Origin: Fibrobacter sp.
Lineage (GTDB): Bacteria > Fibrobacterota > Fibrobacteria > Fibrobacterales > Fibrobacteraceae
Direction: 5' to 3'
Assembly: GCA_012523035.1 (NCBI GenBank)
Contig: JAAYJH010000068.1
Coordinates: 1 to 34,863 of the forward strand
Length of the DNA stretch: 34,863 nt
How positions within the stretch are numbered: position 1 is the stretch's first letter; each line of letters begins with the position of its first letter. Shown here piece after piece: positions 851 through 23,592 of the stretch. A program made the translations under genes and the position numbers. The notes below the pieces were generated by a model. The model saw only the letters and a program-made list of their open reading frames with translations, searched no databases and had not been told where the DNA came from.

Positions 851-1462
851 ATGAAACATTTATGGATAATCGCCACAAAAAACAGTGGTAAACTAAAAGA
901 ATTCAAAGACTTATTAGACACAAACAAACACGAATTCAAAAGCTTAAAAGACATAGGATTCGATCAAGAAATAGAAGAAACAGCCAATACATTCAAAGAA
1001 AATGCAAGCCTCAAAGCCAAAGCAGTGGCTCAATACATAAAACACAAAGGCATCCAAGCCACAGTCATCGCCGACGATTCTGGCTTAGAAGTCGAATCCT
1101 TAGGAGGAGCCCCGGGAGTGTTTTCGGCAAGATATGCAGGTGACATGGCTACAGACAAAGAAAACTACGAGCTCCTCTTGAGTCGCATCAAAGGTGCCCC
1201 CAATAAAAGAGCGAGATTCGTATGTGTATTGGCAGTGCAACAAAGCAGCGGCGAAATTCACTACTTTGAAGGGAGTGTTCAAGGTCATATTCACGATGCT
1301 CCTTTAGGTGAACAAGGCTTTGGCTACGACCCCGTTTTTATCCCAGAAACTCAAACTAAAACATTTGCACAAATGGACCTAAAAGAAAAGCAAAAATGGA
1401 GCCATAGGGCTCAAGCGATGCAAGAGTTTTTGCGGTGGACAAAACACTCTAACTTGGAATAG
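851..1462 (+). CDS. rdgB: XTP/dITP diphosphatase (RdgB/HAM1 family)
   Basis: A cytosolic house-cleaning pyrophosphatase that hydrolyses ITP, dITP and XTP to monophosphates, keeping deaminated purines out of nucleic acids. At 203 residues it is the normal family length. The N-terminus has the substrate-binding pattern IATKNSGKLKEF (residues 7-18). The metal/catalytic signature VIADDSGLEVESLGGAPGV lies around residues 72-90, and GFGYDPVF is near 155. The frame opens on ATG with no upstream Shine-Dalgarno; a -10 box ends 6 bases before it. It stands alone: the upstream transporter is 400 bases away and ileS converges from the right. The family assignment is secure. Confidence 0.95.
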   Translation: MKHLWIIATKNSGKLKEFKDLLDTNKHEFKSLKDIGFDQEIEETANTFKENASLKAKAVAQYIKHKGIQATVIADDSGLEVESLGGAPGVFSARYAGDMATDKENYELLLSRIKGAPNKRARFVCVLAVQQSSGEIHYFEGSVQGHIHDAPLGEQGFGYDPVFIPETQTKTFAQMDLKEKQKWSHRAQAMQEFLRWTKHSNLE

Positions 1463-1485: not shown

Positions 1486-1514
1486 TTGACTTTTATAGAT
1501 AAATCGTGTATCTT
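1486..1514 (+). promoter_or_regulatory. promoter of the candidate small RNA
   Basis: TTGACT at 1486-1491, exactly 17 bases, then TATCTT at 1509-1514. The -10 hexamer is the same as in the rdgB and aldolase promoters. It faces no full-size gene; the predicted start is near 1521. Confidence 0.55.
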
Positions 1515-1520
1515 AAATAT

Positions 1521-1618
1521 AGAACAAGATTCGGTTGGTTAGTAACAAATGGTTTATGGTTATTAATCCCATTAGTCTTCCTTAAATTGGCGGTGCTGTG
1601 CACCGTCATTTTATTTTA
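1521..1618 (+). ncRNA. candidate small RNA or short structured leader (~95 nt)
   Basis: The span between a good promoter (1486-1514) and a terminator-like hairpin contains no ORF longer than five codons but folds. GGTTAGTAAC at 1537-1546 pairs with GTTATTAATCC at 1559-1569: ten pairs, one of them G-U, with one bulged T, closing a 12-base loop. A second perfect hairpin follows at 1591-1605. Promoter, internal stem-loop and terminator in under 140 bases is the layout of a small RNA gene. It could instead be a leader for the 28-codon ORF at 1624. I do not recognise the family; it lacks the SRP GGAAG/GCAG internal loop and is too short for 6S RNA. Confidence 0.45.
1591..1618 (+). terminator. intrinsic terminator
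   Basis: CGGTGC, loop TGT, GCACCG (1591-1605): a perfect 6-bp GC-rich stem followed by the T-rich tract TCATTTTATTTT. The tract is interrupted, so efficiency is uncertain. Confidence 0.6.
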
Positions 1619-1623
1619 AACCC

Positions 1624-1710
1624 ATGACCAAGACGCTGGGATGCGTGCCAGAAATGCTGGGATGCGAGCCAGAGATACTGTGCGAAAACCGTGCCAGAAT
1701 TTGGTGTTAA
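1624..1710 (+). CDS. tiny Cys-rich ORF of 28 codons with heptad repeats (doubtful)
   Basis: An ATG frame ending in TAA encodes MTKTLGCVPEMLGCEPEILC followed by ENRARIWC. The peptide is built from a 7-residue unit, LGCVPEM then LGCEPEI, and a decayed third unit, giving four cysteines. This reflects a 21-bp tandem DNA repeat that keeps frame. It has no Shine-Dalgarno sequence and lies 6 bases past the terminator at 1591-1618. It may be a real micropeptide or only a tandem repeat that happens to be open; I cannot decide from sequence alone. Confidence 0.2.
   Translation: MTKTLGCVPEMLGCEPEILCENRARIWC
1635..1700 (+). repeat. 21-bp tandem repeat, two good units plus a decayed third
   Basis: Units start at 1635 and 1656 (GCTGGGATGCG[T/A]GCCAGA then [A/G]AT) and differ at two positions. 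A third, degenerate unit at 1677-1700 keeps GTGCCAGAAT at its end. Confidence 0.75.
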
Positions 1711-1756
1711 TCTCCGTGAGTGCTTTCCACTTCCAACTTCTGTCTTCTAACTTTAA

Positions 1757-1782
1757 AAAACCAGGCGTGTGTGAGGCTTCAT
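1757..1782 (+). repeat. dispersed 27-bp intergenic repeat, CACA form, copy 2
   Basis: AAAACCAGGCGTGTGTGAGG followed by CTTCAT. In reverse complement the variable tetranucleotide is CACA. It differs from the other two CACA copies by one base (GAGG for GAGA) plus the A in AAAACC. It lies in the convergent region between rdgB and ileS. Confidence 0.85.
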
Positions 1783-1849
1783 GATTATAAATGGATGTTT
1801 TTAACTCATTTTAATTCAAGTGAGGAATAGAATTAAAAAAAGAATCAAT

Positions 1850-2018: not shown

Positions 2019-5000
2019 TTATTTTTTAATCTGAGTGGCTTCTACAAAGACTTTTTCGCCATCGGCTTCTGTTTCTTGCAAAGTGTTGCTAGAGTCCATC
2101 CAAACCAATGTGTCGGCTTGTGTCTCGCCCATGATATATTCTTGGTTTTCTTGGACAGCCTTTTTGAGCAAATCAGATTCTGTGTAAAGCTCTATTCGAA
2201 TGCGGTCTGTGATAGCAAAATCTTGATCTTTACGACGATTTTGGAGGCGATTCACTAGTTCTCTTGCTATACACGCCTGTTTCAATTCATCGGTGATGGT
2301 CAGGTCTAATGCGATGGTGTAGTGGGCGTTTGCCTCTACCGCTAAGCCTTCTGGAACCACTCTGTGGATCAGTAAAGATTCTATCCCAAGGCTTCCAAAA
2401 GGAAATTCTAAACTTTGACCTTCTTGCAAGTTTTTGATTTCTGTAGGGCTCAGTTTCGATAATCTGGCTTGAATTTCTCGCATGTTTTTAGCAAATTCTG
2501 GACCTTTGGCTTTGATTTCTAAGAAATTCGGTTTTGCAGAAATACTCACCAAGTTTGTTTCGTCTTCTAAAAACTTCATCTCTCGAACATTGAGTTCTTC
2601 TAAAATCAAGTCGCGCATGTCAGTGGCTATTTCTTTTTCTAAGTCACCGTGAGACACCACAGTCATAGAGGCCAAAGGCATTCTATTTTTTACATTCTGA
2701 GTCGCTCGAATCACACGGCCCATTTCTACTAAGTCGCGTAAAATGGCAATCCTTTTAACCAAAAGAGAGTCTTTTAGAGATTCATTTGCACTTGGAAATT
2801 CACATAAGTGCACGCTAATAGGGGCACTTGCATCTTGTTCTCTCACCAAAAGCTGGTAGATTTCTTCTGAAAGCATGGGTAAAAATGGAGCTAAAATTTT
2901 ACTCAAATCCACTAACACCTTGTACATAGTGGCATAAGCTGCATTTTTATCGCCATCGTTGTCACTTTTCCAAAAACGACGACGACTTCGACGCACATAC
3001 CAGTTTGTCAAATCATCTATGGCAGCAATGATAGTGGGCACCACATTGTATAAACGATAGGCCTCCATTTCTTGCTCTACTTTTTCAGATAAGTCTTGAA
3101 TAACGGCAAGCATCCAGCGGTCTAATTCATTTTCACTGCTTAAAACTTGTCCGGGTTTCCAGTCTAGTTGCCCTTTACCGGCATCTGCATTGTGGTTGCT
3201 AATAAAGAAACTCACTGCATTCCAGAGGGGGAGCATCACTTGCTTTACAATGGTTTTTACGCCTTCTTCAGAGAAACGCAAGTCTTCTGCCTTGAGTGCA
3301 GCAGAATTGATCATAAAAAGACGAATAGCATCGGCACCAGTGCGTTCGATAAGTTCATTGGGGTCTGGATAGTTCCGCAAGCTTTTTGACATTTTTTGTC
3401 CATTTTCTGCGAGAATAATCCCATTCACAATCACATTTTTAAAGGCAGGTTTTTGAAATAATGCGTTTGACAAAACCGATAAAGTATAAAACCAGCCCCG
3501 AGTTTGGTCTAAGCCTTCGGCAATGAAATCTGCAGGAAACGCAGCTTCTACCTCTTCTTTGTTTTTAAAAGGGTAGTGATTTTGTGCATAGGGCATAGCA
3601 CCGGATTCAAACCAACAGTCAAAGACTTCACTGGTTCTGTAAAAAGTTTTTCCATTTTTTTGGATGACTACTTTGTCGGCAAAATGCTTGTGGAGGTCTT
3701 CTAGTTCCACACCCGATAATTGCTTTAGCTCTTCGATAGAACCCACTGCAATCATTTCTCCGTCATCGGCAATCCATACAGGCAAAGGTGTACCCCAAAA
3801 ACGGTTTCTAGAGATATTCCAATCCCTCGCATTTTCTAACCACTTGCCAAATCGTCCGTTTTTTATGTGTTCTGGCACCCAATTGACTTGTTGGTTAGAG
3901 TCTATCATCCACTGTTTAAGAGTCTTGGTCACGCCTTGGTCATTGGTGAGTTCGGCATCGATTTTTAAGAACCATGTTTTGAGGGCTCTATACAACAATG
4001 GCACCCCTGTTCTCCAGCAATGTGGGTAGCTATGGACAATGGTGTCGTGTTTAAAGACTCTTCCTTGATCTTTTAAATAAGAAATAATGGCTTTGTCGGC
4101 ATCTTTGGCACCTTGTCCTTTCCATAGGGGGACTTTTTCTGTGAATCGACCCTCTTCGTCTAAGGGGTCAAAAAGCCCAAGGCCAAGCTTAGCTCCCAAT
4201 TGAAAGTCTTCTTCACCAAAACTAGGAGCAATATGCACCGCTCCAGTACCGTCTTCGGTGCTTACAAAATCGGCATCGTATATTTGGTAGCGTTTTTCAA
4301 GCTCTTCGGGACTTGCAAATTCATCTGAAAAATGAAACAAAGCTTTGTAGCGGAGGCCCACTAAATCTGCTCCCGAGCAAGAATCTAAAATTTCTGCATC
4401 TTTAAAATAATTATTCAAACGACTACTTGCCACCCATAATTTTTGAGAATCATGGAGCACTAAACTATAATCTATCCCTTTGCCAACTGCCACTGCCATA
4501 TTAGAAGGCAATGTCCATGGTGTGGTGGTCCAAACGAGCAGAGAAGTGTCTTTAAAACGAGCATGAGTAGAGTCTAAAGGAAATACAATAGTGATCGAAG
4601 GATCTTGTCTATCTTGATATCCCTGGTTGGTTTCAAAATTAGAAAGCGGAGTGGCCAGTGCTGGGCTGTAAGGCTGTATTCTATAGCCTTGGTAAATCAA
4701 TCCCTTGTCGTAGCATTGCTTAAACACCCACCAAACAGACTCCATAAAGTCTTTGTCCATGGTTTTATAATCATTGTCAAAATCCACCCAACGCCCCATT
4801 CGTCTCACCGTTTTTCTCCACTCTCCGGTGTATTTTAATACGGCACTACGGCAAGCCTCGTTAAAACGATCTTCACCATAATTTCGAATTTCTGCCACAC
4901 CAGCGAGTTTTAATTCGGTTTGAATCATGCTTTCGATAGGCAATCCATGGCAGTCCCATCCAAATCTTCTGGGCACTTTCTTCCCTTTCATGGTCCAGTA

Positions 5001-5210
5001 TCTAGGCACAATATCTTTAATAGTACCTGCTAGCAAATGGCCATAATGAGGCAGACCTGTAGCAAAAGGAGGTCCATCATAAAAAGTAAAAGTGTTTTTA
5101 CTCTTACGGCTTTCAATAGATTGTTCAAAACTTTTGTCTGTATCCCATAACTCTAAAATTCGTTCTTCTATGGCGGGGAACAATTCATCTCTTTTCACTT
5201 CTCGAAACAT
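2019..5210 (-). CDS. ileS: isoleucyl-tRNA synthetase, long IleRS2-like form
   Basis: Charges tRNA-Ile with isoleucine in the cytosol and edits misactivated valine. About 1063 residues. The class I signatures are HYGH (about residues 55-58, in ATGLPHYGHLLAGT) and KMSKS (about 606-610, GQKMSKSLRNY). Between them is the CP1 editing domain, including GTGAVHIAPSFGEEDFQLG. The HYGH context and overall length match the eukaryote-like IleRS2 clade rather than IleRS1; family knowledge associates IleRS2 with low mupirocin sensitivity. I chose the ATG at 5210: GAGG stands 6 bases upstream, whereas the TTG at 5216 would sit on it. The preceding gene on this strand ends 100 bases upstream. No T-box-like leader is visible. 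Confidence 0.95.
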   Translation of the reverse strand: MFREVKRDELFPAIEERILELWDTDKSFEQSIESRKSKNTFTFYDGPPFATGLPHYGHLLAGTIKDIVPRYWTMKGKKVPRRFGWDCHGLPIESMIQTELKLAGVAEIRNYGEDRFNEACRSAVLKYTGEWRKTVRRMGRWVDFDNDYKTMDKDFMESVWWVFKQCYDKGLIYQGYRIQPYSPALATPLSNFETNQGYQDRQDPSITIVFPLDSTHARFKDTSLLVWTTTPWTLPSNMAVAVGKGIDYSLVLHDSQKLWVASSRLNNYFKDAEILDSCSGADLVGLRYKALFHFSDEFASPEELEKRYQIYDADFVSTEDGTGAVHIAPSFGEEDFQLGAKLGLGLFDPLDEEGRFTEKVPLWKGQGAKDADKAIISYLKDQGRVFKHDTIVHSYPHCWRTGVPLLYRALKTWFLKIDAELTNDQGVTKTLKQWMIDSNQQVNWVPEHIKNGRFGKWLENARDWNISRNRFWGTPLPVWIADDGEMIAVGSIEELKQLSGVELEDLHKHFADKVVIQKNGKTFYRTSEVFDCWFESGAMPYAQNHYPFKNKEEVEAAFPADFIAEGLDQTRGWFYTLSVLSNALFQKPAFKNVIVNGIILAENGQKMSKSLRNYPDPNELIERTGADAIRLFMINSAALKAEDLRFSEEGVKTIVKQVMLPLWNAVSFFISNHNADAGKGQLDWKPGQVLSSENELDRWMLAVIQDLSEKVEQEMEAYRLYNVVPTIIAAIDDLTNWYVRRSRRRFWKSDNDGDKNAAYATMYKVLVDLSKILAPFLPMLSEEIYQLLVREQDASAPISVHLCEFPSANESLKDSLLVKRIAILRDLVEMGRVIRATQNVKNRMPLASMTVVSHGDLEKEIATDMRDLILEELNVREMKFLEDETNLVSISAKPNFLEIKAKGPEFAKNMREIQARLSKLSPTEIKNLQEGQSLEFPFGSLGIESLLIHRVVPEGLAVEANAHYTIALDLTITDELKQACIARELVNRLQNRRKDQDFAITDRIRIELYTESDLLKKAVQENQEYIMGETQADTLVWMDSSNTLQETEADGEKVFVEATQIKK

Positions 5211-5310
5211 GATCAACCTCAGTAGATCCTCAAATGGATATTTTTAGTAAAAAATAGTAAAAGCAAAAAAATCTAAAAGTCATTTTATAAAAAGACTTAT
5301 CAAAACAAAG

Positions 5311-21818: not shown

Positions 21819-21872
21819 ACAATAAATACTAATTTTTATGTAGTATTTTAGTTTGGATTGTCTAGGTTTTTA

Positions 21873-22808
21873 ATGTCAAAATATATGCTAAAGCCATTGC
21901 AGGTGTTTGTTTTCTTGAGTTTTTTTCTTTTGTTGGGAGTAAAAACGGAGGCAAAAGAAACGAGCTTTGCTCTGGATGAGTTTTCTGCGAGTGTGGTGCA
22001 GGCAGTGGTCGAAAAAACGATGCTTCAAGATTATGATGGAGCTATAAAAGAATTGAGGGCTTTGGAGCCTTCTGTGGCGTGTGTTTTGCACGGGATGATT
22101 TTGACCAGCCGTTTCGATGATTTAGGGGATACTTTGGATATTCAAAAGGCCATTCTCCAGTTGAATCAGTGTAAAGCAAAAAAAGAGTGGAAAGCTTTGG
22201 GACAGCTACAATTGGGCTTTGCTTTGGTGCAAAATGGAAATTCTATCAAAGGAGCTTTGAGTACCAGAGAGGCGGCACAGTTTTTTAAAGACAAAGAATC
22301 TACAGATGCAAAAGCTTTTTATGCGATTTATGGGTATTATTTAGACCAAAGTTTAAGGCATATCCCTTTTGTTTCTGATAAAAGAAAGAAATATATAGAT
22401 GATTTAAAGTGGGGTGCAGAAAATTCTAAATATTTTTCTTATGTGTTTACAAGTCCTTTGGTGTGGATTTATTATGACCGCGAAGAATATGAACAAGCAC
22501 TGCATTTGATAGAAAAAGTATTGAAAAAATTCCCTAGAAATCGAGTTTTTTTACAAAACAAAGCCGATATGCTTTATAAATTAAAACGATTCGATGAAGC
22601 TATTCAAGTTTATTTGTTTAGTGTGCAAGAGTATTATTACGATGCTCCTTTTTCGATCCGCTATTGGTGTGCCGTGGCAAACTTGGTGAAAATTTATAGG
22701 GACAAGGGAGACTTAGAAAAAAGTGCTCACTGGCGTGAAAAACTCGACGATAAAGCATTTATAGCACTAAAAAAGTGGCTGGACCCTTCTATTTTATCTG
22801 ATTTGTAA
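21873..22808 (+). CDS. secreted TPR-repeat protein
   Basis: About 311 residues from the ATG at 21873 (a TTG five codons earlier, at 21858, is less likely). A signal peptide (LQVFVFLSFFLLLGVKTEA) is followed by helical TPR-type repeats, clearest near the end: YYDREEYEQALHLIEKVLKK, NKADMLYKLKRFDEAIQVYL, NLVKIYRDKGDLEKSAHWRE. These give a scaffold for binding other proteins in the periplasm. The first part (DEFSASVVQAVVEKTMLQDY then DGAIKEL) also fits a repeat. I cannot assign a partner; the CotH gene upstream is the only neighbour on the same strand. Confidence 0.7.
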   Translation: MSKYMLKPLQVFVFLSFFLLLGVKTEAKETSFALDEFSASVVQAVVEKTMLQDYDGAIKELRALEPSVACVLHGMILTSRFDDLGDTLDIQKAILQLNQCKAKKEWKALGQLQLGFALVQNGNSIKGALSTREAAQFFKDKESTDAKAFYAIYGYYLDQSLRHIPFVSDKRKKYIDDLKWGAENSKYFSYVFTSPLVWIYYDREEYEQALHLIEKVLKKFPRNRVFLQNKADMLYKLKRFDEAIQVYLFSVQEYYYDAPFSIRYWCAVANLVKIYRDKGDLEKSAHWREKLDDKAFIALKKWLDPSILSDL

Positions 22809-22926
22809 AATAATAATTTACAGTTAATTTTTTCGCATTGCATTCGTCTATGTAAATGAGTTTTAAATCATTAAAAACATAGATGCATTCAAAAGTGCAT
22901 TTAGTATAGATACACAAGGATATGCA

Positions 22927-23592
22927 ATGCAAGAAAAAGAGATAGTAGGATTGTTCATAGATGGATTCACCTTTAAGAAAGTAAATGAATATTACCGCTT
23001 CCATCATTGTCGAAAATCGTCCATCGATTTTAGAGGCTTTAAAAATTGGGTGTCTCATATGGTACAGTCCAAATTGAAACTAAAAAATATTTTTTTAGAA
23101 TGTCATTACTATCACCCCTATGAATGTCCAAGTAAAAACACTCGCTTTCAACATTTGGGCACGCAAAGGCTAGAGTCTAAATTAGTAGAAGCAGGTATCC
23201 AAGTCCATTACAATCAAGTCTCTCCACATATCCATTTTGAACGCAAAAACACCACTATTATCCGCCCCAATTTAAGCTTAATAGACGACGCTCTCATGTT
23301 TTCTATCTATAAGAAAATCAACGCTGTGGTTTTAGTGAGCACTCAAGGGCAATTTTCTAACTTGCTCACACAATTAAAAAACTTAAATATCCCCACCATC
23401 AGTTTAGGGTGGGACTTTGAATACCCAAGCTCGGGCTACACCGCAAAATGGCACACTGACCTTCAAATTAAAGAAAAAAGTGTGCACTATGTCCCTATGG
23501 AAAAGGTCATGGAAAACACAATGGATAATATAGATGGAGTTATTATCAATAGGATGTTTTTAAAAAATAAAAAACTCAGTATTAATTTATAA
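22927..23592 (+). CDS. NYN-domain (LabA/DUF88-like) protein with altered active site
   Basis: 221 residues. GLFIDGFTF (8-16) opens the domain like the FIDGxN strand of NYN/LabA RNase-fold proteins. NLSLIDDALMFSIYKKI (115-131) matches the second acidic segment, and AVVLVSTQGQFSNLLTQLKN (133-152) matches the usual ILISGDGDFxPLV. Asp12 and Asp120/121 are present, but the SGDGDF aspartates are replaced (STQGQF, 138-143) and the Asn of DGxN is Thr15. The protein may bind RNA without cutting, or have lost function. AAGGA 7 bases upstream supports the ATG. Its second half is much richer in C than its neighbours on the same strand. Confidence 0.7.
   Translation: MQEKEIVGLFIDGFTFKKVNEYYRFHHCRKSSIDFRGFKNWVSHMVQSKLKLKNIFLECHYYHPYECPSKNTRFQHLGTQRLESKLVEAGIQVHYNQVSPHIHFERKNTTIIRPNLSLIDDALMFSIYKKINAVVLVSTQGQFSNLLTQLKNLNIPTISLGWDFEYPSSGYTAKWHTDLQIKEKSVHYVPMEKVMENTMDNIDGVIINRMFLKNKKLSINL

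Follow-up and report, generated by a model that had tools for sequence, protein, structure and literature searches.

The stretch of DNA analyzed here (hereafter, the window; 34,863 nucleotides) comes from a Fibrobacter sp. and is contig C26 of a 2.2-Mb genome in 125 contigs. Among the 111 family genomes sampled, which represent 11 genera (denoted by the anonymous labels g1 to g11) and include 80 genomes of g2, it is the sole member of its genus. The gap between the converging genes rdgB and ileS (positions 1463-2018) holds a plus-strand unit that consists of a promoter (TTGACT-17-TATCTT), a hairpin and an intrinsic terminator. The next long non-overlapping gene on this strand begins 8.9 kb further.

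The initial annotation described a promoter, a 10-pair stem-loop and a terminator in this intergenic gap and proposed a small RNA (sRNA) gene with a transcript of about 95 nt. All the listed parts are present at the places claimed (Table 1), with the terminator stem followed by TTTTATTTTA, and the length agrees with a start near 1521 as read from the -10 box. Two elements had been overlooked, namely, a palindrome upstream of the promoter, which overlaps the final codons and the stop of rdgB, and a lower stem.

Table 1. Features of the unit and its immediate neighbors (window positions)
Feature	Position	Strand	Remarks
19-bp inverted repeat ACACTCTAACTTGGAATAG, candidate PadR operator	1444-1462		23 bp 5' of the -35 box
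-35 box TTGACT	1486-1491	+	TTG at -35 in 35/35 loci read
-10 box TATCTT	1509-1514	+	17-nt spacer and TA..TT in 35/35 loci read
Predicted transcript, about 95 nt	1521-1616	+	5' end placed by the -10 box, 3' end by the terminator
Long imperfect hairpin	1526-1579	+	fold and covariation
Lower stem, 6 pairs	1526-1531/1574-1579	+	
Upper stem, 10 pairs	1537-1546/1559-1568	+	2 further pairs below, 1533-1534/1569-1570
Apical loop AAATGGTTTATG	1547-1558	+	
Intrinsic terminator	1588-1618	+	9-pair stem 1588-1608, T-rich tail 1609-1618
rdgB-like gene, upstream neighbor, outside the unit	851-1462	+	not retained beside the unit in relatives
ileS, convergent downstream neighbor, outside the unit	2019-5216	-	

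A dispersed repeat lies 3' of the unit (window 1632-1790) and comprises two 21-nt units (1635-1676) and a tail. Copies of this repeat are present in the same genome on contigs C16, C115, C45 and C82, with clusters at C115:67895-68332 and C16:16831-17335.

Taken from one sequence, the promoter and the hairpin are barely above chance, and the case for a gene is weak. Promoter-like sites number 11 vs 8.6 (sd 2.9) expected from shuffles, and terminator-like sites 5 vs 3.6 (sd 2.0). In 166 kb of the window's own genome, TTGAC boxes show no enrichment ahead of genes, and on its own the promoter match therefore carries no weight. The hairpin alone folds with a z-score of -1.40 (19 of 200 shuffles are equally good), and the hairpin with the terminator reaches -3.34 (0 of 200). 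Folds as good as the latter are found in 34 of 1586 noncoding 99-nt windows sampled from the same genome, which overlap, cover both strands and in a few cases fall on the unit itself. It is conservation, as judged from sequence comparison, rather than folding energy that appears to establish the unit as real.

Homologs and conservation of the unit

Used directly as a DNA query, the window sequence yielded no homolog distinguishable from chance in the family genomes, and two of the weak matches later turned out to be the copies in g4. The 21-mers common to the window and three g4 genomes are coding coincidences. The nearest RdgB proteins, also from g4, are 58% identical to that of the window. 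A scan of other contigs for RdgB, which may omit records very near the window's genome, gave 18 loci with a best identity of 49%, none close to the window's genus, and the Fibrobacter RdgB L054 is about equally distant (49-56%) from the genera compared.

Covariance models reached further. The model R1, built from the window RNA alone, matched G003 and G019 from g4, the nearest genus (E 1.3e-5 and about 5e-5 (5.3e-5) in the 111 family genomes). Both copies possess the promoter TTGATT-17-TATTTT and a strong terminator, and the loop AACAAATGGTTTAT is almost identical in the two, with one substitution in one copy; the core pattern matches without mismatches only in these two genomes and that of the window. 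R2, a model of three sequences restricted to the hairpin, was run on 167 genomes of the phylum and added G008 from a third genus, g9 (E 0.016); this copy, too, has a 17-nt spacer and a terminator. R3, which models the promoter together with the hairpin, was applied to 40 genomes and contributed G006 (g7, E 0.0013) and two g2 genomes, G011 (E 0.035) and G001 (E 0.59). Although weak by score, the R3 matches L143, L144 and L146 each have a terminator as well as a palindrome (2 mismatches), two features that the model leaves out. When the G001 copy, palindrome included, served as a DNA query, 56 of the 80 g2 genomes matched at E <= 3e-11, among them G001 and G011 themselves; in the other 24, this single query detected no copy.

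In the combined covariance-model and DNA searches, the unit is found in 61 of the 111 family genomes and 5 of the 11 genera; the RNA was undetected by these searches in g3, g5, g6, g8, g10 and g11, and in the incomplete genomes G013 (g4) and G015 (g9). The 35 loci that were read comprise the window, two from g4, one each from g9 and g7, and 30 from g2, and the remaining 26 of the 61 rest on DNA similarity alone, in some cases over part of the hairpin. Several groups of matches were excluded from the homologs: L083-L089 (R1; terminators and tRNA-like stretches), L090 (R1, E 0.88; the opposite strand of the window), L115-L118 (R2; best palindrome-like site with at least 6 mismatches) and L145, L147 and L148 (R3; within ORFs, best site with at least 7 mismatches). 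The hairpin pattern gave no match in viral contigs.

All 35 loci have TTG at -35 (TTGATT, TTGACT, TTGCTT or TTGTTT), the 17-nt spacer and TA..TT at -10. A clear terminator stem followed by a T-run is present in 31 of them, the pick of the script being ambiguous in L162, L168, L174 and L178. The alignment of the RNAs (A9; the 29 distinct sequences left after removal of six duplicates from the 35, spanning 5 genera, with 24 from a single genus) supports a loop of 11-12 nt enclosed by a 9-pair upper stem, with an 8-pair lower stem beneath. In this alignment, 91.5% of the cells pair, compared to 24-48% when the partner is slid by 1-3 columns. Covariation among homologs, the check proposed along with the original stem-loop, turned out in favor of the structure: compensatory change holds the stem, with 11 of the 17 pairs altered on both sides, which 0 of 500 shuffles equal, and with 25 double-change cells vs 5.7 in shuffles. 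Further pair types, assessed by one shuffle measure, are less striking (equalled by 12 of 500 shuffles). With four sequences, both partners are altered in 6 of 12 pairs, a result that none of 500 shuffles reaches. RNAalifold, unaided, recovers 11 of the A9 pairs, of which 7 have double changes, but its consensus energy is weak (-3.26 kcal/mol). Six homologs folded with the terminator, or most of it, have z-scores from -3.9 to -5.7. The lower stem changes register between genera, and its columns are approximate outside g2; the sequence of the apical loop is variable within g2, the largest genus. A conserved reading frame is ruled against by one-base gaps in the alignment and by the confinement of a 5-codon ORF (MVYGY/MVYSC/MVYSF) to g1 and g4, this ORF being missing from the other genera. 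With the stem, the spacer and, in most loci, a clear terminator retained, the sequence comparison supports the proposal of an sRNA gene.

The neighborhoods of these homologs bear on another reading, under which the unit is only the 3' end and terminator of the rdgB mRNA, with a promoter match due to chance and a hairpin that has no function of its own. The near-chance scores of the promoter and the hairpin alone would fit such a tail, as would the lack of any nearer terminator-like site behind rdgB on the plus strand. The gene order is not shared, however: at 29 rdgB loci in relatives, the flanks scanned (at most about 1.5 kb on each side) never include ileS, and the unit lies beside other genes in g4, g9, g7 and g2, with the promoter and structure retained, which makes this reading hardly credible. 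The g4 units are flanked by a lipoprotein-looking ORF and an RluA-family gene, those of g9 and g7 by yet other genes, and those of g2 frequently by a divergent gene that we take to be proA.

The layout of a hairpin followed by a terminator is also that of an attenuator, so that the unit might be a cis-acting leader that senses some signal and attenuates the downstream gene. Consistent with such a leader, naive ORF calls make the next ORF co-directional in 14 of the 30 g2 loci (15 are convergent and one has none). Nevertheless, at each of the five loci outside g2, that of the window among them, the next gene runs toward the unit. No Rfam riboswitch or leader is matched at threshold, and no antiterminator is apparent because the hairpin and the terminator do not overlap in the predicted folds. 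Together, these observations render a leader very improbable, and a stand-alone gene remains the preferred interpretation.

The palindrome and its association with padR

Alignment of the upstream DNA of four loci reveals an inverted repeat near TTATTCYAANTTGGAATAA. Compared to WTATTCYAANTTRGAATAW, 34 of the 35 loci carry the palindrome at 0-2 mismatches, although 30 of the 35 are non-independent g2 loci that were found with a palindrome-containing query. The window, at 3 mismatches, has the most degenerate copy, and the five loci outside g2 show 3, 1, 0, 1 and 2 mismatches. Of 841 control windows of equal size taken from other parts of these loci, one has 3 mismatches and none has fewer. Within 166 kb of the window's own genome, sites with up to 3 mismatches occur at 4 of 166,083 positions, and the chance of encountering one within the ~60 bp before the promoter is about 0.0014. 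In g2, the palindrome mostly lies 28 bp from the -35 box, the remaining loci having 39 or 84 bp; the distance is 8 bp in g7, 18 in g9, 23 in g1 and 32 in g4, and these distances are not all in helical phase. It may be that the g2 palindrome acts for the neighboring divergent gene or forms part of its coding sequence.

Several genomes are enriched in the palindrome over a reversed control, with strand matches of 13 and 12 vs 0 in G017, 18 vs 2 in G001, 20 vs 0 in G011 and 19 vs 0 in G012. In the window's genome, at 2 mismatches, the palindrome is hardly enriched (5 strand matches vs 2 in the control), and there is no enrichment in G014 (1 vs 1) or G007 (0 vs 6 in the control). The consensus derives in part from the sRNA loci themselves; the padR sites and the two control sets are more independent.

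One gene family recurs behind the palindrome, namely, the PadR regulators (PF03551; 4 of 4 tested by Pfam). Among the 40 genomes searched, 25 have a single PadR match each at E <= 1e-10, one of which (G005, L195) contains an internal stop. The palindrome is located 5' of padR in 20 of these 25 genomes, including that of the window, where the site ATACTCCAAATTGGAATAT lies 73 nt before the start codon; at 19 of the 24 loci with a script-located start, a site with 0-3 mismatches is found 12-82 nt before it. The five padR loci without a site (L199-L203) belong to g5 and g8, and in g3, g6, g10 and g11, PadR has the site and the RNA was undetected. A GH94 phosphorylase-like gene follows padR in all five cases examined (L123, L127, L131, L137 and the window's genome), and the one such gene tested by Pfam is indeed GH94 (PF06165).

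At the level of sequence, these comparisons establish what appears to be a noncoding gene with its own promoter, structure and terminator and with a palindrome common to padR. Because the same site stands before padR itself, the logic of autoregulation suggests that it is a PadR operator, from which a sigma-70-type sRNA promoter would be governed. Under an alternative that we consider distinctly unlikely, the sRNA gene is genuine and the palindrome is read by another factor, with PadR a fellow target rather than the binder. The PadR-palindrome interaction is a prediction from sequence, and the padR loci of g5 and g8 that lack the site would be accommodated more readily by such a factor; against this, the site precedes padR in most genomes, suggesting autoregulation, and the site-less loci belong to genera in which the RNA is undetected as well. 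We therefore favor PadR as the most likely binder, and infer the direction of its effect from the positions of the sites: those 12-82 nt before the padR start suit a repressor, which would act on the enzyme genes, whereas those 8-84 bp 5' of the -35 box suit an activator, so that PadR would activate, or less likely repress, the RNA.

Beyond padR, naive ORF calls place the palindrome next to genes for a GH10 xylanase with CBM6, a sugar porter, a PutP-like symporter, a GH16 protein and an EAL protein, and a glucuronyl esterase gene is 269 nt away from another site. Several sites are inside genes, far from starts, or before unrelated genes, such as that of glutamine-tRNA ligase. The list of sites is mixed and does not amount to a clean regulon. 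Response regulators with HD-GYP domains adjoin sites in two genera, g1 and g2, hinting that the PadR-type regulator might also touch c-di-GMP turnover. These sites, shortly before the respective genes, are L223 (G000:C9) and L211 and L125 (both g2), with the assignment made by Pfam at L223 and L211, and by reading at L125.

Some further sites lie beside proteins without a Pfam match. L126 (G017) and L221 (G003) precede large proteins that resemble each other on inspection, each near an ORF with the look of a phosphoglycerate-mutase-type phosphatase, and another pair, L213 (G017) and L220 (G003), also shares a similar-looking neighbor ORF. In the window itself, two adjacent genes (21858-23592), the second of which we take to be NYN-like, have a look-alike pair (by eye) in G013 (g4); the first gene of the G013 pair encodes TPR repeats, according to Pfam, and is preceded, at 20 nt, by a palindrome-like site (L138).

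Possible role of the RNA and known systems

Considering all these observations, we assign a probability of roughly two thirds to the reading in which the unit is a stand-alone gene of a noncoding sRNA of about 95 nt, likely trans-acting, that is wired into a PadR-controlled regulon of plant-polysaccharide utilization. The RNA would fold into a long imperfect hairpin with an apical loop of 11-12 nt, followed by the intrinsic terminator, and it most likely acts post-transcriptionally, in trans, within a regulon that serves plant cell-wall breakdown and sugar uptake and has this RNA among its outputs. In the weakest step of this scheme, the RNA might pair with messages of the same program.

The apical loop is the usual pairing site of such RNAs. 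When the pairing of the RNA with the leaders of padR, GH94 and one HD-GYP gene was assessed, none of the 13 cases clearly beat shuffles (best, 25 of 200). This negative result, together with the variability of the loop in g2, brings up protein binding as an alternative: the RNA might titrate a protein, or sponge another RNA, instead of acting as a base-pairing regulator. The better preservation of the structure relative to the loop sequence points in the same direction. We regard this possibility as unlikely, albeit a substantial contender.

If the RNA does act by pairing, PadR could be envisaged as a two-way switch of fiber digestion throughout the family: when bound to the palindrome, it would block the wall-degrading and cello-oligosaccharide genes and simultaneously, from its activator-like position, turn on a dedicated sRNA silencing the leftover messages of this program, in a coherent feed-forward loop. 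This scenario is speculative and, on balance, doubtful; if true, it would be the first RNA regulatory circuit for Fibrobacter-like bacteria, as far as the literature searched goes. Fibrobacter ranks with the leading degraders of cellulose in herbivore guts, and the sRNA may help control the handling of plant fiber in these bacteria. A single regulator and its palindrome, together with the listed sites and a conserved sRNA that stands under the same site, offer a testable handle on the control of fiber genes.

Well-known trans-encoded sRNAs of carbon regulons, such as Spot 42 and SgrS, are about 100-230 nt long, have their own promoter and intrinsic terminator, and are controlled by the sugar regulator of the regulon. 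The unit described here similarly appears to be stand-alone, with its own promoter and terminator, but belongs to a different phylum, has no Rfam match at threshold, and shares its site with a PadR-type regulator rather than with CRP or SgrR. No Rfam 15 family reaches the gathering cut-off for the window or six homologous loci. The best hit of the window by E-value is PinT (RF01404; 20.7 bits, E 0.1), followed by 23S-methyl (E 0.86) and rpsL_pseudo (E 1.2); PinT has the same hairpin-linker-terminator layout, but its gathering score is 60 bits, and the six homologous loci do not match it at threshold. The PadR of the window's genome matches solved PadR structures (PF03551; 5x11, 9qbc), although over about residues 4-89 of 195 only. 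The palindrome and setting of the phenolic-acid PadR are unlike those of the plant-polysaccharide case considered here.

The sRNA family appears to be real and, as far as the literature searched shows, undescribed, while representing a known kind of RNA; what is unexpected is the apparent link between an sRNA and a PadR-type regulator next to a cello-oligosaccharide gene. Among the matches listed for PadR and sRNA, there is no sRNA gene of such kind, and among those listed for Fibrobacter sRNA in the open-access literature, no report. In PMC2864571, Fibrobacteres occurs only in the reference list, and Fibrobacter is unmentioned in PMC11109978 and PMC8632094. In the main text of the S85 genome paper (PMC3079729), PadR is absent, and the transcriptional control of cellulase genes is described as an unanswered question. 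In PMC6204037, where the main text includes no sRNA, ncRNA or regulator, the GH94 gene Fisuc_2900 is listed among the highly and stably expressed genes.
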